DNA of 64,000 nt from Beroe forskalii. Taxonomy: Eukaryota; Ctenophora; Nuda; Beroida; Beroidae. Below the pieces are notes generated by a model, which saw only the letters and a list, made by a program, of their open reading frames with translations, was not told where the DNA came from and did not search any database. Shown here in pieces: positions 21,701-41,830 of the stretch (position 1 is the first letter of the stretch; every line of letters begins with the position of its first letter). The stretch covers positions 62,001 to 126,000 of the forward strand of contig WFMF01000244.1 in NCBI GenBank assembly GCA_011033025.1, written 5' to 3'. The position numbers were made by a program, and so were the translations under genes.

Positions 21701-22110
21701 GTAGAAAGGAATACAAAGCTGACTGGCTAACGTGAAAGTGTAACTTCATGCTGTCATGGTGGGTACCACCAAAAGATCTAAAATAGGTTGAGTTAAGTCA
21801 TTTTCACACGAATAAGTTGACCAACCCTCCATCCCCCGGTAGCATGCTCCGGATATTATTCAAACTATGTAGTGCCTTATTTTGATATTCTGCACCGCCA
21901 TAAACAGTTATGTTGTATGCGATTCGATAATATTGTATGATTCTATGTGTCAAGAGGGAGTAGTACCAAGAATCTTCGAGTGAAGATTGCCCTCTTCCTC
22001 TCACAGAAAAAGGCGGACCACACACCCTCTTTGAAATTTGATGGGAAACATAAATTTTTTAAAGCTGTCGTCGAATTCAATGAAGTGGTACTAGATTGTA
22101 CAATGTACCT
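18700..22110. other. AT-rich stretch without a supported gene
   Basis: This contains the GC-rich repeat copy at 18995-19095 and a small GTACGTACGTAC palindrome near 19510. A possible plus-strand exon ends at a good donor (AAATATAGG|GTAAGTA, about 20770), but its short encoded peptide has no recognised homology. I see no conserved domain or RNA gene. Confidence 0.35.
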
Positions 22111-22115
22111 ATAAA

Positions 22116-22673
22116 GGGGGGGGGGCCAACGCTCTTTTAGGCCCCGAGGATATAAAAAATCCAAAAAGAGCCCTAGAAAGTGGGGCCTAAAAGAGCTTAA
22201 AAGGGCCTTTGGGGTAAAAATATTAGATTTTGTGGCCTGTGTTGCCTTAATAACGTCTCGAAACAATTATTTTCTATTTAAATATCATTTAATGACTTAA
22301 TTTTTGGGTTTTTTGCATTTTAGGGGAAAAATTCGATAAAATTTTTTGTAGGGCTCTAGAGGATGACAGTGACCTGAAAGAGCCCTAGAAATTGGGGCCC
22401 TAAAGAGCCCTTTAAACATTTTCCCACAGTTTTCCGGGATCAATAGCCATAGTGTCCTCAAAGTATACTGGATTGTTGAAATACTGTTACCTCATTGAAG
22501 AAAGCACTTAATCAGACTATATAAATGGCATTTTGACTATCTGGGGCTGTGCAATCAATTATTAGAACAATTTTAGTATAGGGCTCTTTTAGGCTCCAAA
22601 GGATATAAATAATCTGAAAAGAGCCCTAGAAAGTGGGGCCTAAAAGAGCCTAAAAGCGCGTTGGCCACCCCCC
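22116..22673. mobile_element. 558-bp TIR element with G-run tips and 6-bp TATAAA duplication
   Basis: The ends are GGGGGGGGGGCCAACGCTCT and the near-complement GCGCGTTGGCCACCCCCC. TATAAA is duplicated at 22110-22115 and 22674-22679. Inside, the motif AAAGAGCCCTAGAAAGTGGGG recurs in both halves and CTCTTTTAGGC is used repeatedly. The G-run tip and A/T-rich 6-bp duplication are shared with the larger element at 23179-27841. No coding capacity. Confidence 0.75.
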
Positions 22674-22774
22674 TATAAATTGAAAATATGATGGTAGTAT
22701 CGTATACGTCGGTACACGGCTTTTTGATTACTGTAATAGCATGAATAATATCCGGAGTCAACGCAAAACACTGA

Positions 22775-23178
22775 TTACGGCTCATTCTCGGGTGGGGGAG
22801 AGGGGGTAAGGAATTGGAGAGCAACTACAAACCAATGTGTCCCCTCTCCATCCGACGCATTGACAATAAACACAATGGGTGCTGTGGTCTTGACTTCTTG
22901 TATGTAGTCGCAGTAGATGGTACTTAGCTTAGCAAGGAAAGTGGAAATACTAAGAGGCTGCTCAATGTTTATCGAATGTAATGCAATGGTGCTGAGATTC
23001 ACAGTGTACATCATGAATGAATAAACGGGAATAAGCTGAACGCACTGTGAAGACGACAGGAAGTGAGGTGCAGTGCCAGGCAAACCTAAATTAATGTTAG
23101 CTATTATGACCATGTCAAGTTGCGACTCATCGGAAGTAGGCCCATAGTAATTGCAATCAGATAGAGGAGTATTAAACC
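22775..23178 (-). CDS. Helitron protein, C-terminal end (domain with catalytic-type His), separated by an insertion
   Basis: The minus-sense frame continues the 1.7-kilo-residue Helitron protein of 27842-33485 after the 4.66-kb insertion. It starts F-N-T-P-L-S-D-C-N-Y-Y-G-P and ends G-E-G-T-H-W-F-V-V-A-L..P-P-E-N-E-P before a TAA at 22775-22777. The pair formed by S-S-C-G-Y just before the insertion and T-H-W-F-V-V-A-L here resembles the Cys/His dyad of papain-fold or OTU-like peptidases. Helitron proteins with such accessory domains are known. The Cys and His are about 135 residues apart if the insertion is ignored. The catalytic assignment is an inference, since no DGxC box of classical OTU is seen. 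Confidence 0.7.
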
Positions 23179-23639
23179 GGGGGGGGGGGTAAGGCAAACT
23201 TTGGCAAACTTTGGCAAACGCTTCCACTTTTTTTGGAGTTTGCCAAAAAAAGTGTTTGCCAAAGTTTGCCATAGTTTGCCAAAGTTTGCCAAAATTTGCC
23301 AAAGTTTGCCAAAAATAACCCAAAAATTTTGTTATTTCTGATTTCTTGTTCACAGTGCATGCAGGACGTGTGCATAATGGTCTTTGAGGAAGCTGAATCG
23401 ATTTCCAATGCTTAATTTTCATTCAGAATTTCCCCTTCAAGGTTCCACGTCTGGAAATTCCCTCTGCAAGCCTCGCTTTAGTTTACTAAATGGTATCCTA
23501 AAGGACCTGGGTTAGAATCTTCGAGGACCTTTCGGTTCAAGAAAAGAGATGTTTATAATTATCAAGAATGGATCCATGTATCTACCATCTACTACCAGTT
23601 CATCAGATAACGTGTCACCGGCAAAATTGTACCACAGGA

Positions 23640-23960
23640 ATATGACCAAAATTAGCCTCCATTAGCATCCATGGAGGCTGAATGGAGGCTAATTTCAAAG
23701 ATAAGCCATTAGCCTCCATGGACATGGAGGCTAATGGTTGCAATAGGCAGGCTAATTTTCGAAAAAAAGCCTCTACTGTGAAGGCTAATCAGCCTCCATG
23801 GAGGTAAAATTTTGGTTTAGCCTCCACTGAAGAATAAAGGCCTCGGACACAGAAACTGAATCATAACATTTTCGTGGAGGCTAAAGCTTTAATATGGAGG
23901 CAAGTGGAGGCTATTAAATAGCCAAATTTTGGAGGCTTGGCCTCCATATTAAACAAAATT
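23640..23960. repeat. Palindromic GCCTCCA/TGGAGGC patch
   Basis: The heptamer GCCTCCA and its complement TGGAGGC alternate in both orientations, including TAGCCTCCATGGACATGGAG and CAGCCTCCATGGAGG. It borders the one-directional array at 24030-27355 and may be the seed from which that array expanded. Confidence 0.7.
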
Positions 23961-24029
23961 TCGTGCTGAAACTGGTAAAATGTGCAATAATTCCTTAATT
24001 TTAAAAGCAGTTTATAGATTCAAACTTTC

Positions 24030-27000
24030 AGACAGCTCCAACTATCCTCCACTCAGCTTTCACTAGGTTCCACTCAGCCTCCACTAGCCTCCGCTCAGCC
24101 TCCACTAGGCTCCACTCAGCCTCCACTAGTCCACTGGACTCCACTAAGCTCCACACAGCCTCCACTAGGCTCCACTCAGCCTCCATTAGTCCACTAGGCT
24201 CCACACAGCCTCCACTAGGCTGCACTCAGCCTCCACTGGACCACTAGGCTTCATTCAGTCTCCATTGGGCACCAATCAGCCTCGAATAGTCTCCAATCAG
24301 ACTGCACTAGGATCCATTCTTCCTCCACTAGGCTCCACTCTTCCTCCACTAGGCTCCATTCTTCCTCCACTAGGCTCCAATCAGCCTCCACTAGCCTCCA
24401 CTCACCACTAGCCTCCACTCAGCCTCCACTCAGCCTCCACTAGTCCACTAGGCTCCACACAGCCTCCATTAGGCTCCACTCAGCCTCCACTAGGCGACAT
24501 CCAGCCTCCACTAGGTTCCACTCAGCCTCCACTACGCTCCAAACAGCCTCCACCCGGCGCCACTCAGTCTCCAGTAGGCTCCACCCAGCCTCCACTAGGC
24601 TCCACACAGCCTCCACTCGGCTCCACTCAGTCTCCAGTAGGCTCTAATCGGCCTTCACTCGGCTCCACTTAGCGTTCTCTCAGCCTCCACTAGGCTTCAC
24701 TCAGCTTCCACTAGACTCCACTCAGTCTCCAGTAGGCTCCACCCAGCCTCCACTAGGCTCCACACAGCCTCCACTCGGCTCCACTCAGTCTCCAGTAGGC
24801 TCTAATCAGCCTTCACTCGGCTCCACTCAGCGTTCTCTCAGCCTCCACTAGGCTCCACTCAGCCTCCAGTAGGCTCCACAGTCCATACAGCCTCCACTAA
24901 GCACCACTCTGCCTCGAAAAGTCTCCAATTTTAGTCTACACTAGGCTTCAAACAGCCTCCACAGTCCACTAGGCTCCACTCAGTCTCCACTACGCTCCAA
25001 ACAGCCTCCACTCAGCCTCCACTCAGCCTCCACTAGTCCCCACTCAGCATCTACTTGGCTCCATTCAGCCTCCACTAGGCAACAATAGCCTCCACTAGGC
25101 TCCACACAGCCTGCACTAGGCGTAACATGGCCTCCACTAGGCAACAATCTGCCTCCACTAGGCTCCACTCAGCTTCCACTAGACTCCACTCAGCCTCCAC
25201 TGACCACTCAGCCTTCACTAGTCCACTAGGCTCCACTCAGCCTCCATTAGGGCCCCGCACAGCCTCCACTAGGCTCCATTCAGCCTCCACTAGGCTCCAA
25301 CTGGACAACTAGGCTCCACAGTCCACACAGCCTCCACTAGGCACCACTCAGCCTCGAATAGTCTCCACTAGGCTCCATTCTCCCTCCACTAGGCTCCAAT
25401 TAACCTCCACTGACCACTAGCCTCCACTCAGCCTGCATTAGGCTCCACACAGCCTCCACTAGGCTTCACACAGCCTCCACTAGGCTCCACTCAGCTTCCA
25501 CTAGACTCCACTCAGCCTCCAATAGCCTCCACTCAGCCTCCACTGACCACTAGCCTCCACTCATCCTCCATTAGGCTCCACACAGCCACCTTTAGGCTCC
25601 ACACAGCCACCTTTATGCTCCATATAGCCTCTTCTAGGCGACACCAAGCCTCCACTAAGCTCCACTCAGCCTACACCACGCTCCAAACAGCCTCCACTAG
25701 GCTCCAATCAGTCTCCAGTAGGCTCCAATCGGCCTTCACTCGGCTCCACTCAGCGTTCTCTCAGCCTCCACTAGTCCCCACTCAGCCTCTACTTGGCTCA
25801 CACAGCCTCCACTAGGCTCCACACAGCCTCCACTAGCCTCCAATAACCTCCAATCAGCCTCCACTGACCACTAGCCTCCACTCAGCCTCCATTAGGCTCC
25901 ACACATCCACCATTAGGCTCCATATAGCCTCTTCTAGGCGACATCCAGCCTCTTCTAGGCTCCATTCAGCCTCCACCACTCTCCAAACAGCCTCCACTAG
26001 GCTCCATTCAGTCTCCAGTAGGCTCTAATCGGCCTTCTCTTGGCTCCACTTAGCGTTCTTTCAGCCTCCACTAGTCCCCACTCAGCCTTCACTAGTCCCC
26101 ACTCAGCCTCCACTAGTCCCTACGGCCCGCTCAGCATCTACTTGGCTCACACAGCCTCCAACAATAGCCTCCACTAGGCTCCACACAGCCTCCACTTGGC
26201 TCCTCACAGCCTCCACTAGGCTCCACACAGCTTCCACTAGGCTCCACTCAGCCTCCACTAGGCTCCATTCAGCCTCCACTCAGCCTCAACTGGACAACTA
26301 GGCTCCACAGTCCACACAGCCTCCACTAGGCACCACTCAGCCTCGAATAGTCTCCACTAGGCTCCATTCTCCCTCCACTAGGCTCCAATTAACCTCCACT
26401 GACCACTAGCCTCCACTCAGCCTCCACTAGTCCTCCACATAGCCTACACTAGGCTTCAAACAGCCTCCTCTAGGCTCCACTCAGCTTCCACTAGACTCCA
26501 CTCAGCCTCCAATAGCCTCCACTCAGCCTCCACTGACCACTAGCCTCCACTCATCCTCCATTAGGCTCCACACAGCCACCTTTAGGCTCCACACAGCCAC
26601 CTTTATGCTCCATATAGCCTCTTCTAGGCGACACCAAGCCTCCACTAAGCTCCACTCAGCCTACACCACGCTCCAAACAGCCTCCACTAGGCTCCAATCA
26701 GTCTCCAGTAGGCTCCAATCGGCCTTCACTCGGCTCCACTCAGCGTTCTCTCAGCCTCCACTAGTCCCCACTCAGCCTCTACTTGGCTCACACAGCCTCC
26801 ACTAGGCTCCACACAGCCTCCACTAGCCTCCAACAACCTCCACTCAGCCTACACTGACCACTAGCCTCCACTCAGCCTCCATTAGGCTCCACACATCCAC
26901 CATTAGGCTCCATATAGCCTCTTCTAGGCGACATCCAGCCTCTTCTAGGCTCCATTCAGCCTCCACCACTCTCCAAACAGCCTCCACTAGGCTCCATTCA

Positions 27001-27355
27001 GTCTCCAGTAGGCTCTAATCGGCCTTCTTGGCTCCACTTAGCGTTCTTTCAGCCTCCACTAGTCCCCACTCAGCCTTCACTAGTCCCCACTCAGCCTCCA
27101 CTAGTCCCTACGGCCCGCTCAGCATCTACTTGGCTCACACAGCCTCCAACAATAGCCTCCACTAGGCTCCACACAGCCTCCACTTGGCTCCAGACAGCTC
27201 CCACTAGGCTCCACACAGCTTCCACTAGGCTCCACTCAGCCTCCACTAGGCTCCACACAGCCTCCACTAGGCAACAATAGCCTCCACTAGGCTCCACACA
27301 GCCTCCACTAGGCTCCACACAGCCTCCACTAGGCGTCACATGGCCTCCACTAAGC
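24030..27355. repeat. GCCTCCACT/GGCTCCACT satellite with a 990-bp higher-order repeat
   Basis: The unit is about 20-22 bp, close to AGGCTCCACTCAGCCTCCAC, repeated roughly 150 times with substitutions. Variants (CTAGTCCACT, GCGACATCCAG, TTCTCTCAGCCTCC) recur at a 990-bp spacing: the segment near 25310-26130 repeats at 26300-27110. The same frames therefore occur at 25615-25815 and 26605-26805. Open frames across the array are by-products of the repeat. Confidence 0.9.
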
Positions 27356-27841
27356 AAATAACATCCTCAATAACGTTATGTCGGGTAATGTTGCAGGAAT
27401 CCATGAAAACTGGTCAGTGGTCCTGGTGGGGCCTTTCTATTGATTTAAGGCTGCTGGAACAGCGTGGATGCTTCGGCTTGAAAAGCTTCAACTGTTTGAT
27501 TGGACTACTTAGTACTTAATAAATGCATAAGACTTAAAGTATGAGGTAATGAAATATCGTATTTGTTACTGTAGTCTCCTACTCTATTCAATGTGGATGT
27601 GATTTCTGCTACAGCTTCTGGATAACGTCAAAATGTAAAACAGACCTTGGGAATCGATTCAGCATCCTTGAAAAGCATATTATGGGTGCCTAAAGTGTTG
27701 CCAAAGTCCTCAAAAATGTGTTTTATTTTTGGCAAACTTTGGCAAACTTTGGCAAATGCTTCCACTTTTTTCGGAGTTTGCCAAATAAAGTGTTTGCCAA
27801 AGTTTGCCATAGTTTGCCAAAGTTTGCCTTACCCCCTCCCC

Positions 27842-30800
27842 TAAACCAATCTGCACCTAAACACATAACGGAAGCAAGTTTAGCAACTACACGCGAAGCA
27901 ATATAGCCACAGCTAGAACCATATTGGATATTATCAATCGACTCCCTGACCTGGAAACCCAATCCTGTAAGCTGTGCAGCCACATTTCGGGACTGCCTAT
28001 CTGCAAAAAAGTCGATGACATGCGCTTTTCCAATACAGTTATTTGGCTTTGGGGGTTCTGTTGGGAAATTGTGGAGAGGGGACACATTAGGCTTAAAAAC
28101 CTTATGTTTCTTAGCTGGGGGCTTGGGTTCAGCTGCTGGCGCGTAATCAGTGTTAGCAGAATCAGTGACGTCCTGTTTAAACATTTTAGTAGGTCTTAGA
28201 ACAGGAGACCACTGATCTGGCGGTGGTGGTCTCTTGCCGGGGTTTGGAGAGTTGCCATCTTTACTAGATTTCAGTGGTGATTTTATTGGCGATTCATTAG
28301 TGTCATTTTCAGTAACTCCATCTGATTCAGCAGGCAGCTTGAATGGTGGTACACTGCGCAATCTGGCATACTCTTTAACTATCGCTTGATCGGTTCTGAT
28401 GGAATTTGGGTCAAACGATATCAGAAATAAGCCCTTCAGCGATGTTAGGCGAGAAATTGCTGTGTAAGCCATACCAGCCTTCCAATTAACCCCGGACATG
28501 TCAACATATGCCGTCTGCAAGGTGACTCCCTGGCACTTATGGATGGTACTTGCAAAGCACAACGTTAAAGGGAGTTGATACCTTTTTAGCCAAACATTTG
28601 TTTTGCGTGCTTTCTTGCATTTAAATCGCTTTTCCACAGGTTTTATTGGGACTGTTCCGACTAGATCACAATATTTAGAGCACCATTTATTGCAGCTATG
28701 CTTGGTTGGACGGCCCACCTTTTCATTGTCAAATAAGATGTAAACTGCTTGAATGTCATTAGCAGAGCGACATGTCAAGGTTGGGTCACCAGGGTCAGGC
28801 TGTGGTGCTCGTGCAGTCGCCTTGTACTTTATGTATTTTACCGTTCCAGTGACGCCATTACAGATCTTATTGGTCACATCAATGTTAGAGCGAACCATGA
28901 CACGAGCACCTACACCGAGCGTGATGGCAGTTGGAAGGCCGGCAGTCTTATTGATGTCATCACAAACGTAGTCTTTTATGTTTTTTTGTGCCTGGCCGAG
29001 AGCCTCATCTGTAAACTTATCAATGCAATGAATGTTTTCCACGTGAGTTGTTGTTCTCAAATACTTTATGCAGTCATCATTATGCTTCTTACATTTATTG
29101 TTAGTGGAAAATAACAGCATAGTTTGCATTAACTGCATGATAGGTGGAAGTTTGGTAATAACACGTGTTTTGAGCAAATCAATGTCAGCAGATGTATGTT
29201 TGCCAGTCCTTATACGATGACAAAGTGCTGTAAAGTCAGTGTCACCTTTGCTACGAACAACATCAGTAAGTTCTGAAAATGACACTAAGTCTTTCCAAAG
29301 ATTGGTCCCAAGTGCAGCCAAACCTCTTGGATCAAATATTTTGGTTTGTTGCACAGGGGGTATCTGGAATAAATCACCAACAAAAATCACATTGATACCA
29401 CCGAAGTAATCGTGATCTTCTGACTTCCCGTACAACTGATTGAGACGAGAGTGTATCTGATTTAAGTTGGTATTTCCAATCATCGACACTTCGTCTACTA
29501 TCAGGTACTGTACGTGCTGGAAGACGTTGTTATACATTTGGTCACGTTTGGCACTGTTGAGGGGTTTGTTGTTGAAAAACCCGCCCTCTTGGCAGTCTAG
29601 CTGGAGAAGCTGGTGCACTGTTTGACCGTCAATTAGTGCCGCAGCTACTCCAGTGCTGGCTGATACTAGAACTGCAGATCGCGATGATGGGCGGTTAAGT
29701 GACCTGTTTATACAGTGCCGTAATACAGTGACCAGGAACGTCTTACCAACGCCGCCAGCCCCGCTCAGGAAGTGAATAAGTTGGTTAGCTTCCTTTCCTT
29801 CGCGGAGCCGAGCAACGTGTCGCTTAACCATTCGGAAAATTTTATGCTGTTGGGTGTTAAGCGACCGTACCATGTCACGATATTCCTCATCAGTGATTGG
29901 TGGCTCCTCATAGGTGACTTTGAAGTTTTCGTCTGAATCAGGCTTTTTAAGATCTGATGGTGGGTGACATGTCATTCCCCTAGGGTCAAGATCTTGAGTG
30001 CTGTTATCCGGATCATAATTATTAATAATTTCTTCACGGACACTTTCGAAAATTTCTTCAAGCTTTTCAGAGTCTATTTGCTCATACTTTGTCATATTTT
30101 CTTTAATAATAGCGTATTTAGAAGAAAAAGACTCTTGAAGTGACGCAAAGTTTCCTAGAATTTGTGACTCGTCTGTCCAGGGGTAATAAAGGCAAATTTT
30201 AGAATAGTAGTAGGCCTCAGGATCCTTAGCTCGTGAAGGATTATGACTTCGTACAACTTGTGGAGTTAACCGTCTGATCATTTTGCCTAGCCTGGTGTCC
30301 TTCAGCGTTATGATTCTGTCCTTGTTAGAATTGGTTACTTTGCCACTAGCAGGAAACTTTTCATAATTGCAAGCAAATTCCTTATAACAAACATTCGTAA
30401 GATCATCAGGCCTGCTAGGGTAACGATCAATGTATCCCTTTTCAAACACATCATCAGACTCATCCTCCATTTCAGTCATCCTTTTTTTTGGCTTGAGTAT
30501 GCCATGCCGCTGATGAGGCATATCTGACGGAACGAAAATTACACGCGGCTCGAAAATAGACATTGGTAATGACGTGGCTCGATACACGCCTTCTTGCAAA
30601 GAAACAGATCGTGCTTCTATAAATTTGTTACCCAAAGCTTTCAGTTTTTGTTGTTCCGTTTTATTCTCGTCATTGCAAATGTTATCCTTCACATCGGACA
30701 TAGCACTACACACATCCTTCTCAGACTTTGTAGCATAGGCTATAATGTAATGAACCAAGTCCCAAATCGAAGTGATGAATTGCACGTCCATGTTAGATCG

Positions 30801-33485
30801 AACGGCTTTCAGAAACGTTATATTAAAAGGATTGACATATTCATTGCCAGGTGCCCGTTTATGTATGACCTTTTGCCGTCTACCCTTATTCTTAGCAGCT
30901 ACTTTCACATTTCCATCAAAAAGTTCGTTACCATTTTCATCAGCAATTATAGTTCTCTCAGAAACAGGCCTTGGAAAGTGAAATCGACATTCATCTGTTG
31001 TTTTACCCTTCGTGCATGTTTTGGTATGTTTATGAATTTGCAACTGGGCCCATTTATGAAGATCAGGATCCTCCTCCTCGGTAGGGATGTGTGTAGTGAT
31101 ATGTTTGTCGATATGATCGATAACAACGTTCAGGGGGTCAACGCCGAGTTGAGGAGCATTGCGCTGTTTGAGCAGTAAGTGACCGTGAGGACTGCCCCTG
31201 TCACCGAATTCGACCCTTCCAAAGTATGCCTCGACCTCGCCAAATACCTTACGTTTCTTAAGAAGATATGAAAATACCTTATGGAAGTACCTGTCAAACA
31301 TTCTTACAGCAATCACGGGATCCTGTTTCAGATGTTCATGCTTACGAGACCAAGACATATTTGTTAGCAGCTCGTCATCAGGTTCAATGCCTTGTAACTT
31401 TAGGATATTAGGTATGACGTAAATAAGATCATTAATGGAGAATGAGAGAAACCAAGTAAATGTCCCAAGCTGAGAGATCATGCCAGTGCCATCCAACTGA
31501 AGACACTTCCATTTTGCAGGAGTGCCCTTAATGTTTTTCATGAACTGAAATGCATCGATGTTATTAAGCAAATCCTCAGTGTCGATTAAGTTGTTTTTAA
31601 ATAGGCCTGCTGTTATTCTTATGCCACCAGTGGTTGACTTGCAGGTCTTACGAAGGAAGGTGGTTATGCTGCTGTATATTGCCTCACGTTCAACTGCAGC
31701 TTGTGTAAAAAAGATCCACTCTGGATCAGAAGCGAATCTCCTGTCAGCTGAGTATAAACGGTGCTCTGCATAGCCTTTCCTCGTCAGCTTGGGAATTTCT
31801 TTAGCGTCTATCAGCCCTAGCCTGTCCTTATCGTAAAAATGGCCCTTGCCTAATGGAAACAAATTAGGAAAAGATAATGGCTCAGCCATCGGGTCAGTAA
31901 AAAGTGGAATGGGCGTTTTGCCTTGGCCAGGCGCGAATTCCATGACAGGGACTTCCTTCGGGAAATTTTGAATAGGATCCTTGGGCTGAATGCAGTGATC
32001 ATATGGTAGCTCGTCATAGATGCCTTCATTAAACATGTTACTAATTAATTCATCTAAAATTGAACGAACTATTACGTGCGAATTTTCTGCTAAATGTGTA
32101 TTGAAAAAGTCTTGATTGTCATGGTAATTCAATGTTATCCACTCATTGTTTAAAACAGCGTCATGATATAACGGATTATTTGCCTTAAGCCATTTTAAGA
32201 AATTTATAATTTTCTCGGGATCCACCATGTCAGATAAAACAACAGTTTTATGGTTGATCTGACGTTTAATTTTTACATGTACAATTCCCAAATCGGAAAT
32301 ATCACGTGGTAATTTGAGGCAATTTTCCTGAGCATCTATTGGAACGTTCACTACAGCTCCTTTGATACCTCGCTGACCCCCTGAAGGCAGTGATCGAATT
32401 TTCATGAACTGAATTCGCATGGATATTAGACGCGTTTCGGTGGGATTACAATTTAACTCAGGAGGTACCGTGCCAGTCTCAAGAAGCATTTCTTTCGTGG
32501 AATCTGGGCATACTTTTTTAGACTTTGTATATGACCTACATTTGCCACAAATCCATTTATCAACTTTTTTTTCAGAATTTTTTGACGCGATGAAAACTGC
32601 CTGCCTAAAATTCAGTTTATTACAAACGTGGCATTCGTATTCGCAAGATTCGCTCATTAATTTTCTAAATCCGGTTACAGTTTCCATGTCATATGCAGAA
32701 ATGTTAGAATTAGGCACCGCGCTTGAAGGGTCATTAGTTGCATCAGTAGTACGAGTAGATTGTTTAGGTAGAGGTTGTGCATTGGGTTTAGGGTTGCTAT
32801 GGGCAGGGGAGGTACGGGTCTGGGGATGTGGATTAGTGTCAGGTTGGCAAGTAGAGTCAGGGATATTCTGGTCTGTAGGCGTGGGGATGTCAGTGGGGCT
32901 TGTGCTATCTGATGTACCTGGCTGTTCACCTTGTCCCTGAGCCTCCTGAGCAATGACACCTGAACCTGAGTTACATTGACCTCCAGCACGTCCTGCAATA
33001 GAGTCAACTAAACCTAACAACATATCCTTCATGAAGCTAAACATGTCATCCTTTGAAATTGCAGCGTCGCTATTGTCAGTAGGTGCAGGATTTGAGGTTT
33101 TGGGTATGGGATCCTGAGATGTGGTTAGTGAAGTGATATCTGCTTGTGGTGATGAAACAGTGTCCTCAATAATGGTTGCAATCGTGCTTTTAGTGGACTT
33201 CTTTCGTCTTTTTTGTTTCCTCTTTTCACTCTTCTCAATCCTTTCCTCTTTAGTCCTCTGTGAATCTTGAAGTCTGCGTTGCTCATTCCTTTTGTCCTTC
33301 TCCTCGGTGGATTTCAGTGAGTCTTGAAGTCTGCGTTGCTTCCTTTTGTCCTTCTCCTCGGTGGATTTCAGTGAGTCTTGAAGTCTGCGTTGCTCATTCC
33401 TTTTGTCCTTCTCCTCGGTGGATTTCAGTGAGTCTTGAAGTCTGCGTTGCTCATTCCTTTTTTCCTTCTCCTCTTCAGTTCTCTT
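27842..33485 (-). CDS. Helitron Rep-helicase protein (main part)
   Basis: This is the replicative transposase of an animal Helitron. From the Met at 33044 it has a zinc-ligand cluster (C134, C138, C141, C166, C169) and then a Rep nuclease with the HUH-type motif R-G-S-P-H-G-H (H620, H622) and two catalytic-type tyrosines in Y-I-I-A-Y-A-T-K (Y766, Y770). A PIF1-like SF1 helicase follows, with Walker A G-A-G-G-V-G-K-T (about 1095-1102), Walker B I-V-D-E-V-S-M, G-D-L-F-Q-I-P-P and the late motif F-A-S-T-I-H-K-C-Q-G-V-T-L. A Cys box (G-S-S-C-G-Y) near 1725 starts the extra C-terminal domain. Known biochemistry: Rep nicks and joins single strands, and the helicase unwinds. The frame extends upstream of 33044 through K-S-T-E-E-K-D-K-R repeats to a frameshift near 33485. 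The last about 35 codons before 27842 in the raw frame belong to the inserted element. All core motifs are intact, but the copy as a whole is interrupted. Confidence 0.9.
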
Positions 33486-33715
33486 TCAGTGAGTCTTGAA
33501 GTCTGCGTTGCTCATTCCTTTTGTCCTTCTCCTCGGTGGATTTCAGTGAGTCTTGAAGTCTGCGTTTCTCATTCCTTTTCTTCTTCTCCTCAGTGGATTC
33601 TTGTGAGCGTTTAAGTCTGAGTCTCTCATTCCTTTTCTTCTTCTCCTCAGTGGATTCTTGTGAGCGTTTAAGTCTGAGTCTCTCATTCCTCTGCGCCTTT
33701 TTCTCAGCAGGAGTC
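33255..33715 (-). repeat. 57-60-bp coding minisatellite in the Helitron N-terminus
   Basis: About eight tandem units encode R-N-E-Q-R-R-L-Q-D-S-L-K-S-T-E-E-K-D-K or the variant R-N-E-R-L-R-L-K-R-S-Q-E-S-T-E-E-K-K-K. These are charged helical repeats common in Helitron and LINE N-termini. One unit lacks 3 nt (in frame). Another has about one extra nucleotide (AAAGAGAACT), which breaks the frame at 33475-33489. Confidence 0.85.
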
Positions 33716-34191
33716 AGTTTACTATCTAACCTTTCTGGTTTTTGTCCTGTAGTCGATGATTTTCGGTTTTTACTACCTTTTTTACTACCAGTAGAGTTGA
33801 TAATCCTGGGTTCCTTCTTTTCCTTTGATTTCTTCGGCTTTTCGTTACATTGTTGTAAAACTTGAGTCGAAGGTCCGCTGATGTCTTCTTCCGTTGGGTC
33901 GTTTTCTCCAATAACAATGTTGAAAATATCCTCGTTGTATGGGGTGTGTTCATATGTCTGCTCAGAGTCGTCCAAAAAGTCTGCCATATCTGAATCCTGG
34001 GAGAGATGTGCATGAGAACCTTCAGATTCGTCGCCAGAGTGGTCAGCTTCGTCGTCAATGAAGGGGCAATGGCGTCTACCTCCACCTACCTGGTTACTGA
34101 TGGTCGGAAATAAGTTGCATGAAATGTGGTTAAAAGACTTTGAAAATATAGCAGCGCCTAGTTCACGAGCTGGTAAGGTGTGCAATGTCAA
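33475..34191 (-). pseudogene. Helitron protein, N-terminal part before the frameshift
   Basis: The 238-codon frame begins M-T-L-H-T-L-P-A-R-E-L-G-A-A-I-F. It has an acidic region (D-D-E-A-D-H-S-G-D-E-S-E-G), a lysine-rich stretch (K-P-K-K-S-K-E-K-K) and then the N-E-R-L-R-L-K-R repeats that continue across the frameshift into the main ORF. The most likely reading is one protein of about 2.1 kilo-residues, broken once here by a +1 slip in a repeat. A sequencing or assembly slip in this repetitive DNA is an alternative. Upstream DNA becomes the G-rich tract, so the true start codon is uncertain. Confidence 0.7.
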
Positions 34192-34194
34192 AGT

Positions 34195-35690
34195 AGGGGT
34201 AGGCGCGATGTTGGGAAGGAACCCGGAAGACAGGGTTGGGGAAGGGGTTGGAAGGTACGGTATAGGGCATGCTTGGGGAGGTGTAGGAGGGACCGTAAGA
34301 TGGATAGGGGTAGGAGGGAGAGGGGTAGGAGGAGAAGGGGTAGGAGGGGGAGGGGTACGAGAGGGATGGCAGGTGGGCGGTAGAGGGGAAGGAGGGGTAG
34401 GAGGGGGCGTGAAAGGAGGAGGGGGCGGGATAAGAGAGGGAGGGTAGTAGAAGGGGGCGGGGTAGGAGGAGGAGGGTTAGAGAGGTTGGGATAGAGGGGG
34501 CAGGGTAGGGAGGTGTGGGAAGGAGGGGGGTGGGGTTGGAGGGAGTGGGTAGGAGGAGGGGGGGGGTTAGAGGGAGGGGGTAGGAGGAGGGGGCGGGTAG
34601 GAGGGAGGGGTGGTAAGAGGGGGTTGGGTATGAGGTGGGGTAGGAGGTTGCGAGGTAGGGAGGGGGTGGGGTAGAGGGGGCGGTGTAGGAGGTGGGGGCA
34701 GGAGGGGCAGGGGGGAGGGTGGGGGGAGGGGGGGGGCGAAGTGGGGGGGGTCGAGGTTGGCAGGGGGGGACTGGGAGGAGGGGGTGGCATAGGAGGGGGC
34801 GTGGAAGGAGGAGACCGCAGGGTAGGCGGAGGAGGGGTAGGAGGAGGCGGAGTTGGAGGATAGGAAGGAGGGTCGGAGGGGCAGAAGTGAGGTTGGAGGG
34901 GGGACGTTAGGAGGGGGGAGGGGGGTGGGAGGGGGCGGGGTAGAGGGCGGGGTAGGAGGGGCGGGGTAGGAGGGGTGGGGTAGGAGGGGGGGTGAGGGGG
35001 GGAGGGGTCCCGGCGGGGAAGCGAGGCGGTGGGGAAGGGGTCGGAGGGGGTAGAGGGTGGTGTGGTGGAGGGCTGTGGGGTTAGAGGGGGGGGTGGGAGG
35101 CGGGGAAGGAGGGTGGGGTAGAGAGGGGCGGGGTAGAGGAGGGGCGTGGGGGGTGGAGGGAGGGGGGGCTAAGGAGGGGGCGGGGGTAAGGGAGGGGTCA
35201 GGGGTAGGAGGGGGTGGGGTAGGAGGGGGCGGGGTAGGAGAGGACGGGGTAGAAGGGGGCTAGGAGGATGGGGGGTAGGAAGGGGGGGTAGGAGGGGGGG
35301 TAGGAGGGGGGGTGGGGGGCGGGTCGGGGCGGGGCAGGAGGTGGGGTTAGAGGGGGCGTGGGCAGGGGTGGAGGGGGGTAGGTGGGAGGTTGCGGGGTAG
35401 GAGGTTGCGGGGTAGGAGGGGGCGGCGTAGGAGGGGGCAGTTAGAAGGTGGAGGTGAGGTCGGGGGTTAGCAGGGGGGGGGAGGAGGGGGGGTAGGAGGT
35501 GGGGTGATAGGAGGTGAGGGTAGGAGTTAGAGGGGTAGGGCGGGGCGGGGAGGAGGAGGTGGGATGGGGGCGGCAGGGGGGGGGGGGCGGGAGGAAGAGG
35601 GGGTTAGGAGGGGCGGGAGTGGGAGGAAGGTGGGGTAGGAGGGGGGTTGAGGAAGGAGGGTAGGAGGCGCGGATCGAGGCGAAGGGTTAC
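34195..35690. repeat. 1.5-kb G-rich simple-sequence tract
   Basis: The plus strand is almost only G with A and T (units near GGGGTAGGAGG and GGGGCGGGGTAGGAGG). Runs of three to ten G occur every few bases, so G-quadruplex or triplex formation is likely. It directly abuts the 5' side of the Helitron coding region. Long proline- or glycine-rich frames here are composition artefacts. Confidence 0.9.
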
Positions 35691-36600
35691 TGTTTGAGAG
35701 GATGGGGTAGGAGCGGACTGGGGGGGGATCGGACAGGGGATGTAAATCCCTTAGAAAGTTGGTGAAACCAAGAAGTCTGTGTGGAACTTTTGCAGGAGGG
35801 GGAAATTGTCGAGTAGCTGCTGATGGTCAGAGGGCCTGGGACATCTAGCAACCCATGTGGGGTTAGGAGGCGAGACAGGTGGAATGGAGCGGAATCGAGG
35901 ACACCTTCATCGTCTTTGTGGTACTTTAGGGGTATTTTCCGAAGGGACGAGACGGACTGTATCTCCTTCCAGTCCGCTGGTTGATGATGTAACACCTGAA
36001 AGGGTGGCTCCTGCTCGATGGGGATAGGTCGGAGACGGGATGATGCTGCGTTGTAGACGTATTTATCCCTGCCAAACAGAAGAATCCTTGATGAAGTGCT
36101 GCCTTGAGAGATGAAGCTGTACTTGCCGCTCGTGAGAAGTTGCCAGGTAGACGTCTTCAAAGGATCAGGCAGAACATCCTCAGAGTAGGAAAGTCCATCC
36201 AAAAGAGAAAACAGAGATCCTGATCTAACAGTGAATTAGGAAAGCTTTTTATCGTCTTTGAGGTTCTTAGGTAGTAGGTCTTGCGACAGGACTTTGGAAT
36301 TGACGAGGAAACGGGGTTATCTTCATCATCCGCTGGTTGATGCTGTAATACCTTAGAAAGACTGGGAACAAAGTCTGGGGATTGTGAGGGAGGAGTTGAT
36401 GATGGACTGCCGATGTAGATGGATTTATACATCTGAAAACTCCAACAGAAGAATCGTCCCATTGTAAGAAGTGCTATTGTTGGGAGCATGATAACGGCTG
36501 CGACAACCTCATCGATAGAAGTAGGTAGATGTCCTCAGGTTAACATACGTTCCTCTGAACTGGAAAGTCCGTTCTTGAAAAGAGAAAACTCATAGAGGGC
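35690..36600 (-). repeat. Imperfect tandem duplication of about 380 bp, possibly 3' exons of the 2A gene
   Basis: The minus-sense blocks near 36590-36300 and 36200-35940 share ordered elements: GGACTTTCC..C-T-C/T-GAGGA, GATTCTTCTGTT(T/G)GG, AAATCCATCTAC against AAATACGTCTAC, CATCAACCAGCGGA, and ACAAAGACGAT or TCAAAGACGAT. The open frames (35687-36202 and 36157-36489) read L-H-H-Q-P-A-D and L-Q-H-Q-P-A-D at matching places. Stops break the paired frames, so this is either non-coding duplicated DNA or decayed 3' exons of the gene at 36913-39453. Confidence 0.5.
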
Positions 36601-36912
36601 TCAACATGATTCAGCATGGGGCCAGACGGTGGATTATGGAATCTTTGGGCTTCCTTATGAGTACGAGGATCCTTGTTAAAGTGCTAAAGGATGATAGGAG
36701 TACGGGGAAATTTGTCTTCAACGAAGAAACCGATAGAAGTACTGAAAGTACAACCATCGTTGTCGAAAACAGCGATCCTCATTCTTCTGGTGGTTCAAAC
36801 TTATTTGGGCATCCTTTATGATCTTCCTCATTAGAAAAGCATAATTTTAGAAGTAACCGGTAACAGAGGGTGAAACGTGTTTCATCTGAACAACGTTCGA
36901 TATAGTTGGTAC

Positions 36913-37116
36913 CTTTAAAGAGTTTATGATAACGGCTGCGATGGAACTGTCTGCGCGATGTCTCTGTACGCGGCGTGTCATAGCGCTTATCCCCTGCCCA
37001 CCAACACACTCACATCTTACCTCCTTGAAGCTGTCTGTGAAGTCCGTTCTCTGGACGTTGTTCTGTCTCAGAGGGCTGCACAGGTGCTTCAGCATGCTGT
37101 CTCCAATGACGAGAGC
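36913..37116 (-). CDS. 2A-linked gene, SGNH-esterase exon
   Basis: Acceptor TTTTTAG; the exon opens in phase 0 with A-L-V-I-G-D-S-M-L-K-H-L. The G-D-S with following hydrophobic and basic residues is block I of SGNH/GDSL hydrolases (Ser nucleophile). About 30 residues later V-R-C-E-C-V-G-G-Q-G-I-S-A-M resembles block II (Gly). The segment A-D-S-S-I-A-A-V-I-I-N-S then fits the strand before block III. A donor AAG|GTACC gives 68 codons; an earlier donor GAG|GTAAG at 37020 is also possible. SGNH enzymes cleave esters of lipids or carbohydrates. Blocks III and V (Asn; Asp-His) were not found, so the end of the gene is unknown. Confidence 0.55.
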
Positions 37117-37326
37117 CTAAAAACATGCAATAATGAAGGTCTCATCGAAAAATTGTGAGGGTAACAGACGTCTTGTCGTCTGTAATACTAATGTATCGGA
37201 TCTAACACAATGAAACGTATACCCGGTCAACTTGAAACACGGGCAACATTTCAAACACCATACCATTAGATTTACGTAAGGTAGACCAATTTAATGTATG
37301 AATTTGATAAACATGCAGATATTGAC

Positions 37327-37487
37327 CTTGATATCCGTGTACTGGTAGGGCATGACCACGGGACCTGGATTCTCCTCCACGTCTCCACACAAGAGGAGGA
37401 GGCTCTGGAGTATCAGGCGGCTGATGTAGTCCGTGGTAGGTTCCAGTAACACTGTGTTCCATGTTGTGCTGGCAAAATGCTGTATAC
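37327..37487 (-). CDS. 2A-linked gene, exon carrying a 2A ribosome-skipping peptide
   Basis: The exon is 161 nt, phase 1 to 0, with acceptor TTATTTAG and donor AAG|GTCAAT (an uncommon GTC donor). Codons G-I-Q-H-F-A-S-T-T-W lead to R-L-I-L-Q-S-L-L-L-L-C-G, then D-V-E-E-N-P-G-P, then V-V-M-P-Y-Q-Y-T-D-I-K. The 2A consensus D-(V/I)-E-x-N-P-G-P is exact, and the upstream L-L-L-L-C-G context matches cellular 2A sequences of marine invertebrates and their LINEs. In known cases the ribosome skips the final Gly-Pro bond, giving two proteins from one message. Here it would separate a secreted helical protein from an SGNH-like protein beginning P-V-V-M-P. Confidence 0.8.
37360..37383 (-). other. 2A motif (DVEENPGP)
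   Basis: These 24 nt read GAC GTG GAG GAG AAT CCA GGT CCC on the minus strand. All eight consensus positions are present, preceded by Leu-Leu-Leu-Leu-Cys-Gly. The expected skip point is between the last Gly and Pro codons (between 37363 and 37362). Confidence 0.9.
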
Positions 37488-37617
37488 CTAAATAAAATGA
37501 ACATTATTCATGGCAATCATTAGGTTTACAGAGTAAGCTATGAATACTTGAATACTTGAAAGCTTTATAATTCGAGTTATTGGCAAAAAAGGGTCACAAT
37601 CGAATGGCGTCGCATAC

Positions 37618-37719
37618 CTTCACTGAAGTGGCGTAGCACATTGATGATGTTGCTGTTGCTGCCGCTTCGGAATATCGATTCCAGCACGTCTTCTACGACA
37701 TCGAAGAGCCAGTAGGTCG
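37618..37719 (-). CDS. 2A-linked gene, 102-nt exon C (tandem duplicate)
   Basis: Acceptor GAACTCAG, donor GAAG|GTATGC, phase 1 to 1, 34 codons: A-T-Y-W-L-F-D-V-V-E-D-V-L-E-S-I-F and on to N-V-L-R-H-F-S-E-G. It is nearly identical to exon B at 37945-38046, and its flanking intron sequence is also duplicated (period about 327 bp). Either exon alone, or both, keeps the frame. The encoded segment is amphipathic and helical and resembles the end of exon A (A-D-L-V-E-Y-G-L-E-V-L). No known domain. Confidence 0.7.
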
Positions 37720-37944
37720 CTGAGTTCGCAATGAATTGTTTAAATTTAATTAAGAATTAGATGATTGAAATAATCCTGGAATTGGGATTAATGATTATTT
37801 CGCTGAGAACATATTTACTGAATACGAATAAAAAAGTAGGTATGCGATACAGGATATCGAATGTTGGTAGGGCAGCAAATACTTTATACATCGATTTATT
37901 GGCAAAGAAAAGGCCGCATTCAATAATCGAATGGCTTCACATAC

Positions 37945-38046
37945 CTTCACTGAAGTGGCGTAGCACATTGATGATGTTGCTGTTGCTGCCGCTTCGGAAT
38001 ATCGATTCCAGCACTTCTTCTACGACACCAGTGAGACAGTAGGTAG
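37945..38046 (-). CDS. 2A-linked gene, 102-nt exon B (tandem duplicate)
   Basis: Acceptor AAACTCAG, donor GAAG|GTATGT, phase 1 to 1: A-T-Y-C-L-T-G-V-V-E-E-V-L-E-S-I-F and then the same end as exon C. The two exons differ mainly in their first 12 codons and are identical over the last 20. Equal length and phase make mutually exclusive or repeated use possible. Confidence 0.7.
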
Positions 38047-38339
38047 CTGAGTTTGGAACAATTTGCATCAATGTAATAAAGAATTGATTGTATGTTTGAA
38101 ATAAGCCTGAATTTAGTGAAGACCATTTTGGGTGAGAATTATGAAATATGAATAAGAAGAGCAATAAAAACCTCGATATGCGATACAGGAAAGCCATCGA
38201 ATGTTGGTAGAGCAGCAAATAGCGAGATCTATGGTCCTAGAAGCTATCCTATCCGACATATGGTGTAATCCTGAAACAGAGTATTATAAATGAAGGTCGG
38301 TTAAAAAGGGGCGGGACTCGAAAATCAGTACAGACTGTG

Positions 38340-38575
38340 GGACATGGGGAACGGACATTTCATCTTACGACACTTCATCTCAGGACACTTTATCTCGCAA
38401 TATGTCAGCTCTATGCAAAAAGGTAAGGGTCTGGGTAAGGGTCAGGGTAAGGGTCAGGGTAAGGGTCAGGGTAAGGGTCAGGGTTTGGCTTTGGTTAGGG
38501 TCAGGACAGGGAGATGAAGTGTCTTGGGATGAAATGTCGTGAGATGAGATGTCGCCCATCCGTGGGACATTAGGC
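38340..38575. repeat. Inverted-repeat unit with GACA(C/T)TTCATCTCA motifs and a 12-bp tandem core
   Basis: The left side has tandem GGACATTTCATCTTACGACA-type units. The right side carries the complement (GAGATGAAGTGTC, GGGATGAAATGTCG). Between them, 38415-38480 is a (GGGTAAGGGTCA)n array of about five units, ending in GGTTTGGCTTTGGTTAGGG. It lies in an intron of the 2A gene and is probably a small non-autonomous element. Confidence 0.65.
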
Positions 38576-38600
38576 AAAGTCACTATCTAAAGAGATTGTT

Positions 38601-38631
38601 GACTCCTCCGGGCCTTCGGCCCGGAGGAGTC
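38601..38631. repeat. Perfect 14-bp hairpin with TTC loop, copy 1
   Basis: GACTCCTCCGGGCC, TTC, GGCCCGGAGGAGTC: a 14-bp perfect stem. An identical copy lies at 38678-38708. Both are in the long intron between exon A and exon B of the 2A-linked gene. Confidence 0.9.
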
Positions 38632-38677
38632 TATACGTAAACAATTAAACAGACGGCTCGATACGGAACAAACGGCT

Positions 38678-38708
38678 GACTCCTCCGGGCCTTCGGCCCG
38701 GAGGAGTC
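38678..38708. repeat. Perfect 14-bp hairpin with TTC loop, copy 2
   Basis: Same 31 bases as 38601-38631. The 46-bp spacer is unrelated. The hairpin starts about 37 nt downstream (in gene sense) of the exon A donor, so in the transcript it would fold next to the 5' splice site. Confidence 0.9.
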
Positions 38709-38744
38709 ATTCTTTTCACCAATTAATATCATAGCAATACCCAC

Positions 38745-39453
38745 CTTCCAGAAGAACGGTACATGCGTGATGGATGTTCTTGTCAGTTACGCAGGTGTAG
38801 AGGACCTCCAACCCGTACTCCACCAAGTCAGCAACAGCGATGATCAGCTCGTGTACTTGTGGGATGGGCTGGGACCTGACAACACTCTTACCTGGTGCCT
38901 GGAACAACGTCATCATGAAGTGGAGATCCCACTCCATGATGACGTCAGCTGGTGTTGCTGAGTTCAAGCAGACAGGTAGGATCAGGGCGAGTAACAACTT
39001 AGCATGGCCTTGTTGTAGTACGCGAGTCACCCTGATCACTACCTGCCTCCTAGAGACTCCGTAGGCACTGTGCTGGAACCTGGGACTGGAATGAAAGAAC
39101 AAATACCATATGGCGATATTTTCGTTAATGTATTGAGTCAAGTTACATAACATATCTGATAGAATTAGATAATAATGCATCATTTCCTCAGAACGAATAT
39201 CAGTCAGAAAACCATGTATCATGTCACTAATGAGCTGTAAATGTATTGTAAGACCATGACAGAAATGCACTAGGAATGACTTTCCAACATAGAAAACAAT
39301 GCCAATACACACATCCAAGATCGAAAAAATGAATTCCAAAATATCAAAAACACTGTGGATAAAATCAAACTTTCCCATGATTCCGCTGTCTGGAGGTGCC
39401 AAGTCCATTGAACAGCCCAGTATTAAAAGCAGTATGAGCACACGGTATCTCAT
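38745..39453 (-). CDS. 2A-linked gene, first coding exon with signal peptide
   Basis: From ATG at 39453 the frame runs 236 codons plus one base to donor GAAG|GTGGG. It begins M-R-Y-R-V-L-I-L-L-L-I-L-G-C-S, a clear signal peptide, and continues with long hydrophobic-amphipathic helices. There is one N-L-T sequon (C-N-L-T-Q-Y). The last part (A-D-L-V-E-Y-G-L-E-V-L...N-I-H-H-A) resembles the short exons B and C. The total before the 2A break is about 346 residues with both B and C. I recognise no family. It is best described as a secreted or lumenal helical-repeat protein. The exons chain in phase (709+102+102+161+204 nt = 426 codons). Confidence 0.65.
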
Positions 39454-39599
39454 CGTTCAACTGGACTCTCTTGTTTACAAAATAGTTTGGGCGATCAAAC
39501 GTAATGCAGCGGAATCACGGGAGAAATGATAAATGCGAGAGTTCTAGGAAGTGGACTCGAGGTTACCTTGGTAACGAGCTAAATGTACTAGCAAACGCG

Positions 39600-41830
39600 C
39601 GAGTGTAATTAAGCAGAGTACATTGCGCGCTCAGTGAGTGTAGCCAACCGTGACCAACCACCACCACCACCAACGACATACGGTCGCGCGCAGCACCTAT
39701 TTCAGATTTAACAGTACGCGTAAAGGTAGTATACGCACAACCCCCTCAAAACACGATCTCTGCTAACCTATTCTCAATGCCTTTTTGTAAAACAAAAACG
39801 CGATTGGGAACAGGAAAAAATCAAAAACAAGCCTCAAGCACACTGAGGTGCCAATTAAGGCTTGTGTTTTAAGTACAAGTAGCCTCATTGCTACGGAATA
39901 CTGTGGCAGCATTATATCAAAATGAGAGCAGGATATAACAACTTAAAGGGTATTGATTGAGGTCACAAGCATCGGCGATTATTAAGCGGTTGCATGTCGA
40001 AGTGGTGACCGTATACCGCAACTTACATGGTCGAGGCGACAGCCGAGACTGTGTAAGTTGGATAATGGACGAGGCGTGCCGAGTTCATTATCATAGGTAT
40101 ACGGTCACAGCTGAGATCATGGAACCGGATTATACCCCGACCGGAAACAGCTGGGACCTACTATTCTCTGACCAACCAACAGTATTTCTTTAACCTCGGG
40201 TCTGACGACCCTCGTCCGGATTCAACGCTTAAGTAGATTTTTGAGTGCTCCTTTATAAAATCAAATTTCATTTTAAGTTTTTTTTGTACTGTAATTCAGT
40301 GGAGACCGTATAACCAAACTTACACGGTCGCTAAAACAAGCATGGGAGGGGTATAAAACATGTTCTATGAGCTCACCTATCAGCTTCCCTCACCTTTTGC
40401 CCCATCGGGGTGGTTTCGTCCAGCGGCGGGCGCCAAACGCATTTAAAAAGATCAGTTGTGCGCCGTAAAGGCAATTAAGCGCCGCGCGCGTGGGAAAAAA
40501 AGTTAACTTTTGTTTTCATAACGCAGTAATCGAATCTAGATCGCTTGGATATGTCAATATATTCGAATATATTCACATACTATTCGAATATATTCACATA
40601 TTCGAATATATTCACATATTCGTTCTTAAAGTAAGCTGCGGAGCACTGGAGCAGTGAATAAAAGAAAATTTCACAAAATAGCGTGGTTATTTTTGATAAT
40701 TCGATCACTTTGCCTCCATTGTTTTTCATAGCATCTTAATCAAATCTACATATCTGCAATCTTAATATTACCTCAGACCTGTGGTTTGTAGATGAAAATA
40801 TTTTTGCTGCAAGAAACTAGAAAAAGTTAGGATTCTTTGAATTACGACATGACAGCACAATGTGCCGAGGAAATTGTTCCGAACAAATTGTTTTAATATT
40901 TCTGAGGAAAAATTTTCGTTATTCTTTGCAGCTATGCGGATCCATCCTTGATAGTGCAGCCCTAAATGGTGCAACAACGTGATCTCTAGTCTCTCCGCCT
41001 ATTCCCAAATAAGTCTGTTCGCCTCGTTCGACTGCTTCAATAGCATGAGCCGTGATTATTCGCACCAAGCAAATTTGCTCGAATTTGGGAAACCAGAAAC
41101 AACATGACGCCTGGATGATTGGAGTTAAGGGGTCAGGGCCAGGGGTCAGATGGTAGGACAAAATGCCAGCCGGACGTTACACCACCTCAAATGGAAATTA
41201 TGAAAAGACGCCGTAGAATTGTGTCACAGGATTACGCACAAGCGTCCCATTCGCAAAATTTGTGCTCTAAGGTGGTGTTTTTTCCGGGTGGTGTTTTGTC
41301 CGCGCACCGTTATGGTTCCATTGTAGGATGGCATCGGTATTTAGTCGACTTTGGAATATATCTGTTGAAGTACCAATCCACCCGCCTCCCCTGTCAGCAT
41401 TTGAGGATTTCGAAACCCTTCCCATTGCAGTAACATTGCAGTAACATTGCAGTAACAGTAATATGTGACGGAAATGGTTGTTTAGAAGTTAATGCGAAAC
41501 TCAAAAGTGAAATACCTTTGGATCTTAAGAAAAATTGAGATACAATTAGATTGGCTTTTCATCGATAAATCAGAAAGAACAGTCTTATTATAAAATTAGA
41601 GCTCGAAATAAAATGATTTTCATAAAAGATGTCGAAACGTCATCAAAACTCACATTTTTCCAAAAAAACGTGATATAAAGATATAAAAGCCATTCCTATT
41701 GCGTAACAGCTGATCGGGGTAAAAATTGGATTTTAAGTTCAATTTACTTTGATTTAAATGCTGATTGATATAAGTAATGAACATGGCAGAAAACCATACA
41801 TAAAAACATGTTAGATGCATAATGTCCGTT
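39600..41830. other. Intergenic stretch with dispersed repeats
   Basis: No gene is supported. At 39970-40360 there is a repeat with GACCGTATAC..CAACTTACA..GGTCG on both strands and the block TCGGGTCTGACGACCCTCGT...GTGCTCCTTTATAAAATCAA; a related block occurs at 58117-58185. A TATTCGAATATATTCACATA tandem repeat is at 40552-40622. A GTAACATTGCA triplet repeat is at 41428-41455. Confidence 0.45.

Follow-up and report, generated by a model that had tools for sequence, protein, structure and literature searches.

Natural use of ribosome-skipping 2A peptides is known from RNA viruses, long interspersed nuclear elements (LINEs) and a few invertebrate genes. The 2A motif considered here lies in 64,000 nucleotides from the ctenophore Beroe forskalii (contig WFMF01000244.1, positions 62,001 to 126,000; this whole stretch is called the window, and coordinates are those of the window unless another contig is named), in exons that form the 5' part of a Helentron-type rolling-circle transposon, which probably makes a protein directed to the endoplasmic reticulum (ER), a 2A peptide and then a large replicase from a spliced message. 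The core motif of 2A, or StopGo, has the form (D/G/C/N)(V/I)ExNPGP (PMC12846837), and for the version GDVEENPGP a figure of ~99% is tabulated for the viruses Thosea asigna and Euprosterna elaeasa (PMC8623073, Table 1). In a sea-urchin 2A, the hydrophobic residues immediately before the core matter for activity (PMC4981915). Canonical Helitrons (Helitron1) begin with TC at the 5' end and finish with CTRR at the 3' end (PMC4067079). No report of a 2A in a Helitron was found in a literature search whose range had subscription papers, preprints and repeat libraries outside it, and such an element may already stand in a repeat library or be unpublished. Ribosome-skipping terms combined with rolling-circle transposon gave only a PIF/Harbinger paper, as judged by its title, and the papers listed for Helitrons with AlkB look unrelated by title and the start of the abstract.

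The 2A motif and its exons

A preliminary description of the locus placed a spliced, host-like gene at 36913..39453, with an exact 2A motif between a secreted protein and the start of an SGNH esterase. Five exons with GT/AG borders can indeed be joined in phase on the minus strand of the window:

38745..39453, minus strand: exon 1, a signal-peptide-like start and a conserved protein part of 236 residues that includes hydrophobic stretches, the N-x-T sequon at N104 being conserved too; ratio of nonsynonymous to synonymous substitution (dN/dS) 0.21-0.33
37945..38046, minus strand: exon 2, 102 nt, a 34-residue module
37618..37719, minus strand: exon 3, 102 nt, a near-copy of the exon 2 module
37327..37487, minus strand: exon 4, which bears the 2A
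37360..37401, minus strand: the 2A sequence LLLLCGDVEENPGP, with the predicted skip between Gly (37365-37363) and Pro (37362-37360)
36873..37116, minus strand: start of exon 5, block I of an SGNH (GDSL-type) esterase, with the frame decayed past AAVII in the window copy

The 2A in exon 4 matches the core motif, and its exactness is confirmed by a perfect DVExNPGP-coding match at 37361-37383 (minus strand), the sole one in the window at up to two mismatches. Shuffled versions of the window held 0.04 such matches on average, with one match in each of 4 of 100 shuffles. The 216-Mb genome has six stretches of codons for D(V/I/M)ExNPGP, the reversed control none, and five of the six occurrences belong to the same Helitron-like family as the window element. 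The sixth, DVETNPGP at C436:15713-15735, lies in a 66-residue frame that lacks a leucine-rich run and is treated as a chance match. All five exon 4 loci recovered by protein search (the window and contigs C208, C653, C225 and C847) encode exactly the same 14 residues, with a frame change upstream of the 2A in C653. These loci fall into subfamily A (window, C208 and C653) and subfamily B (C225 and C847). Between the subfamilies the 14 codons of the 2A differ by 7 or 8 bases, all of which are silent, and random placement of changes reached such silent-only outcomes in 6 and 2 of 200,000 simulations. The restriction of the differences to silent positions indicates that the 2A peptide is under selection in this element. 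It is extremely improbable that the motif is due to chance or is a functionless vestige, as the match on C436 and the loss of the motif from a sixth exon 4 fragment might suggest, given that the five loci from the protein search are exact and differ only silently between subfamilies. The sixth fragment, found on C658 by DNA search, has the motif destroyed by a small deletion and reduces the exact motif to five of six loci, which counts against a maintained 2A.

The coding sequence on both sides of the 2A is likewise conserved. Exon 1 gave a dN/dS of 0.21-0.33 in each of the ten pairs that five copies form, with synonymous divergence (dS) of 0.22-0.28 within subfamilies and about 1.4-1.5 between them, and for exons 4 and 5 the ratio, which is based on few sites, is 0.09 to 0.59 in 14 of 16 pairs and undefined in the other two. 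These low ratios in exons 1, 4 and 5, together with the silent changes in the 2A, show that the 2A has been maintained along with the protein before it and the SGNH start after it while the element multiplied.

The splicing pattern is predicted from a comparison of borders among copies of the element. The GT donor of exon 1 and both the AG acceptor and the GT donor of exon 4 are present in five of five copies, and the AG acceptor of exon 5 is present in four of four, so that the borders behind the in-phase joining recur outside the window. The exception is the first middle exon of C208, which has GG at the donor place and GT six bases further on. Exon 1, the end of which resembles the module of exons 2 and 3, more likely ends at 38745 than at an inner GT at 38891, since residues past 38891 are conserved in five aligned copies of the exon. 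In unspliced sequence the 2A frame is closed by a stop within the intron between exons 4 and 5 in three of four copies (window, C208 and C225), and in C847 it crosses the 139-base intron, enters exon 5 out of frame with SGNH and stops there.

The replicase and the ends of the element

The span of the preliminary description lies inside a much longer element, the further parts of which are as follows:

18618..39820, minus strand: complete Helitron-like (Helentron-type) element, 5' end at 39820 and 3' end at 18618, with later insertions inside
39799..39820, minus strand: 5' terminus, six T and then CCTGTTCCCAATCGCG, preceded by A in five of five copies compared
39806..39817, minus strand: 5' subterminal inverted repeat, 12 bp
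35744..36220, minus strand: broken AlkB-like (2OG-Fe(II) oxygenase) remnant
33475..35603, minus strand: proline-rich, charged linker with estimated limits, in several frames in the window copy and in a single frame in C847
27723..33485, minus strand: 1920-residue open frame with DUF6570, Helitron_like_N (HUH Rep), PIF1 helicase and the start of a C-terminal Cys domain
22775..23178, minus strand: remaining part of the C-terminal Cys/His domain, with the stop codon, split off by a later insertion
18680..18691, minus strand: 3' subterminal inverted repeat, 12 bp, 62 bases from the 3' end
18618..18649, minus strand: 3' terminal palindrome, imperfect in the window copy

The 1920-residue frame (33485-27723) has Pfam matches to Helitron_like_N (E value 4.8e-23) and PIF1 (E 5.1e-26), plus DUF6570. 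HUH and two-tyrosine motifs are found in Rep, in forms which, like those of the SGNH blocks, we take to be the usual ones. Relatives of exon 5 are open frames of 2026 residues on C847 and 1169 residues on C225. Downstream of the 2A exon on C847, SGNH, AlkB-like, DUF6570 and Rep parts share the single 2026-residue frame (2OG-FeII_Oxy_2 at E 3.8e-19, DUF6570 at 6.3e-17, Helitron_like_N at 7.2e-24), and the AlkB-like part matches the ALKBH2 and ALKBH3 chains among solved structures. The suggested SGNH start directly after the 2A stands for the family and in part for the window: profile search of the post-2A part places Lipase_GDSL_2 above the cut-off in C225 and C208 and slightly under it in C847 (E 2.6e-7), and blocks I, III and V are present in all three of these copies, whereas the window copy retains only block I (GDS), its frame being broken after AAVII with blocks III and V not found. 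The C-terminal domain has conserved Cys and His (YGSSCGYIA, DGEGTHW), with no Pfam match and one weak, non-significant match among solved structures (E 2.1). Pfam gave no apurinic/apyrimidinic (AP) endonuclease in the 1920-residue frame or in the stop-terminated C-terminal piece of C847, the 4-kb 3' non-coding part lying outside the scan, and no reverse transcriptase domain was found in the C847 frame (SGNH to Rep) or the window frame (to Rep and PIF1).

The AlkB-like domain has 132 genomic matches at E up to 1e-5, many of them in frames of 500-860 residues. One such locus (L048, C170:933700-935900) has AlkB followed by a weak SGNH match, and frames of this kind are perhaps a retrotransposon open reading frame 1 (ORF1) family with a demethylase-like domain. 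The preliminary description had offered, as a second option, a LINE ORF1 captured into a host gene. It is very unlikely that the exons are a LINE (CR1/Jockey-type) ORF1 equipped with an esterase and a 2A, or a cassette that a Helitron derived from such an ORF1. Both 2A peptides (PMC4981915) and ORF1 esterases (PMC3905857) have been reported in non-long-terminal-repeat (non-LTR) retrotransposons, and the AlkB of the repeat-like C170 frame is 35% identical to that of the Helitron-like element over 155 positions. Against these likenesses, the exons are separated by introns and belong to an element with Rep, helicase and Helentron ends, the order is SGNH-AlkB in the element and AlkB-SGNH at C170, and C170 has no D(V/I/M)ExNPGP codon match. 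A LINE therefore fails as the identity of this Rep-helicase locus; what survives of the idea is the co-occurrence of the two domains in another repeat-like frame of the genome, and the SGNH-AlkB cassette may share its domains with retrotransposons and may be of remote retrotransposon origin.

The ends are those of a Helentron rather than of a canonical Helitron. The element combines an HUH Rep and PIF1 in the same frame with defined ends and differing flanks, as Helitron-like elements do, and it has the subterminal inverted repeats of at least 11 bp (12 and 11 bp) and the 3' stem loop (a 15-bp stem in a C847 copy) of Helentrons. Its 5' end is TTTTTTCC and its 3' end CTTGTT or CTTTTT, neither being the canonical form. 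Five insertions share the 5' start, A then six T, between unrelated flanks: the window, C208, C1058 and C225, all with exon 1, and a short copy on C1058 at 170450. Three copies served to locate the 3' end: that of the window, the short one on C1058 and one on C847, which is closed by a 15-bp palindrome, the palindromes of the window and C1058 being imperfect. In subfamily A the subterminal pair is TTTCCTGTTCCC at the 5' end and GGGAACAGGAAA near the 3' end (12 bp), and in subfamily B it is TTTCCCTCCCC (C225) and GGGGAGGGAAA (C847) (11 bp), so that the two members have changed in step. The 3' member lies 62 bases from the end in three of three copies; when the window pair was shuffled 500 times, a repeat as long as 11 bp never arose. 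As to insertion at TT, which is expected of Helentrons, A then six T is seen at the 5' end in five of five copies and the 3' flanks vary in three of three. The 29-base 5' end has 501 genomic matches at up to 3 mismatches and the 19-base 3' end has 1364 at up to 1 mismatch, the latter number possibly including near-perfect palindromes counted on both strands; reversed patterns gave none in either case. For contigs up to C185, 58 exact 5' ends are listed; 33 of them are followed within 9 kb, on the same strand, by an exact 3' end that is also listed, and for 2 such an end lies upstream. Twenty-five of the 33 pairs are 0.9-2 kb apart and are likely non-autonomous copies. Rfam gave nothing at the gathering threshold in window positions 18000-41000.

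Since Rep, PIF1, DUF6570 and defined ends occur in the same element, the 2A-bearing exons are neither a host gene nor a LINE, and the description of the locus as host-like has to be given up in favor of exons inside a mobile element whose 5' end is common to five insertions with unrelated flanks. A host gene family with 2A, like the sea-urchin NLR genes, that was hit by a Helitron insertion or recently captured is highly improbable. The several exons and the signal-peptide-like start would suit such a family, and Helitrons are known to capture fragments of host genes (PMC6431247). Among the best scored candidates for exon 1 in the genome there are six matches, five of which are element copies and one (C715) a broken fragment of 34% identity, with no separate host gene seen among them. 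Exon 1 moreover lies within 0.9 kb inside the common 5' end in four of four copies compared that have that end, and its conservation across two subfamilies at dS about 1.4-1.5 shows that a capture was not recent.

Several other repeats adjoin or interrupt the window copy. A 4.66-kb insertion at 23179-27841, whose inverted ends read GGGG...TAAGGCAAACTTTGGCAAA and which comes with a short GGTTTA duplication, splits the C-terminal domain. Two copies of the fold-back sequence gactcctccgggccgaaggcccggaggagtc lie in the first intron at 38600-38707, with matches in the same intron at C208:19449-19570. Beside the 5' end of the element, a repeat at 39822-39902 is found at seven other places at 80-90% and has a fold-back look, which suggests that it is the end of another element, that is, a tandem insertion. 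At the other side, 17112-18617 (plus strand) holds a LINE-like ORF1 with a weak PHD match; the 3' end of the Helitron-like element falls inside that frame, and the element therefore seems to have landed in a retrotransposon.

The pre-2A protein and the proposed expression of the element

The hydrophobic, signal-peptide-like start first noticed in the window is conserved in five of five copies. Hydrophobic stretches of the window-copy protein are at residues 38-56 and 154-172, all five copies have an N-x-T sequon at residue 104 (residue 100 in subfamily B), and about 300 or more residues are predicted before the 2A. Exon 1 has no match among solved structures and none in NCBIfam or PHROGs, and no relatives of exon 1 or Rep were confirmed in viral contigs. 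DUF4495 and Pkr1 were considered as domains of the spliced protein and set aside, their Pfam matches being below the cut-off. A 26-residue query across the 2A junction gave no matches, probably on account of its shortness and of the intron that it spans.

In the mechanism proposed here, protein-coding copies would give a single spliced message, and translation would start in exon 1. Exons 1-4 would encode an ER-directed hydrophobic protein, and at the 2A the ribosome would skip the Gly-Pro bond, release the first chain and go on with Pro-Val-Val-Met to the replicase, in the order SGNH esterase, AlkB-like oxygenase, proline-rich linker, DUF6570, HUH Rep, PIF1 helicase and C-terminal Cys/His domain. 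The replicase would be made without a signal peptide, which would leave it free to act on DNA in the nucleus. Splicing, skipping, ER entry and nuclear action of the replicase are predictions from sequence, and two products per message, as suggested in the preliminary description, is the most likely predicted outcome.

A number of observations weigh against an active element that works in this way. The signal peptide and membrane segments are read by hydropathy only and the topology is ambiguous. No end-to-end intact copy is present among the copies read, which are a subset of all copies. In the window copy exons 1-4 and the Rep-helicase frame are open, the AlkB part is broken, the charged linker has a frame change, most SGNH and AlkB sequence is missing and the C-terminal domain is split. 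Of two copies about 21 kb apart on the same strand at C847:345000-385000, the one with the 2A has a 2026-residue frame that ends between Rep and helicase, and the other has a 1058-residue frame (Rep and most of the helicase) that is interrupted on both sides, its alignment with the window having gaps of 1.65 kb ahead of the Rep-helicase frame and 2.57 kb behind it; the C-terminal domain of this second copy is uninterrupted and ends in a stop. The C1058 copy passes from exon 1 almost straight to a Rep that holds stops, the intervening part being lost, and C208, C225 and C653 gave no match to the Rep of this family in the Rep search. Neutral in this respect is an empty-site search with the joined window flanks, in which no match spans the junction, the left flank matching LINE-like copies and the right flank another short repeat.

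The skipping step itself is open to a further objection, since in cells a 2A can be inhibited by a signal sequence upstream, according to which residues directly precede the 2A (PMC2978324). The split may for this reason be partial, and a partial split would, by analogy, be a partition switch as described for the sea-urchin NLR 2A. It is unlikely that the 2A is poorly active at the ER-docked ribosome, the main product being a membrane-bound fusion and free replicase a minor one. Such a switch has precedents in the inhibition behind signal sequences seen by de Felipe et al. (PMC2978324) and in the sea-urchin 2A signal sequence that partitions products between two sites (PMC4981915). The inhibition was, however, dependent on residues upstream of the 2A and not general (PMC2978324), and the 14 residues are unchanged across subfamilies, both of which count against a poorly active 2A. 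As to what the first protein does, membrane work with the esterase and passage between cells are guesses. A virus-like layout, in which the 2A sets the replicase apart from a conserved glycoprotein, either secreted or of the membrane, that would serve passage between cells or hosts, or membrane remodelling with the SGNH esterase, is an unlikely extension of the proposed mechanism.

Comparison with known systems

What appears to be new is a DNA transposon with a clearly selected 2A that has an ER-type protein before it and a transposase after it. The element is a natural case for the interplay of signal sequence and 2A, and it raises the question why a protein directed to the ER, an esterase and an AlkB-like enzyme should be retained in a Helitron. 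A caution also follows for the annotation of invertebrate genomes, in which supposed host genes with a 2A may consist of transposon exons.

The closest described elements are the Helentrons, whose anatomy (PMC4067079) is shared in the Rep-PIF1 helicase, the 11-12-bp subterminal inverted repeats, the 3' palindrome, the T-rich 5' end and the many short non-autonomous copies. Their subterminal repeat is about 38-60 bases from the 3' end, compared with 62 here, and an AP endonuclease, expected C-terminally in Helentrons, was not found in the scanned frames of this element, which adds an N-terminal ER-type protein, a 2A, SGNH, AlkB and four predicted introns. Helitrons with VTD or OTU deubiquitinase domains (PMC9741609) likewise have a transposase polyprotein and an extra domain with conserved Cys and His, whereas the C-terminal domain described here has no Pfam match and no significant match among solved structures, and what it visibly shares with VTD is the conserved Cys and His. 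The SGNH hydrolase mobilized by a Helitron in platyfish (PMC4021074) is another case of an SGNH gene inside a Helitron. In platyfish it is, by the title of that paper, a captured Y-chromosomal gene, whereas in this element the replicase frame opens with the SGNH domain, which is kept across subfamilies. The 2A peptides of non-LTR retrotransposons and sea-urchin NLRs (PMC4981915) have a similar core, hydrophobic residues before the core and a link to signal sequences. In the sea-urchin NLRs a single N-terminal peptide is both signal sequence and 2A, unlike the long predicted protein that precedes the 2A in this element, and the other known carriers are LINEs (PMC4981915), whereas the carrier here is a DNA rolling-circle transposon.

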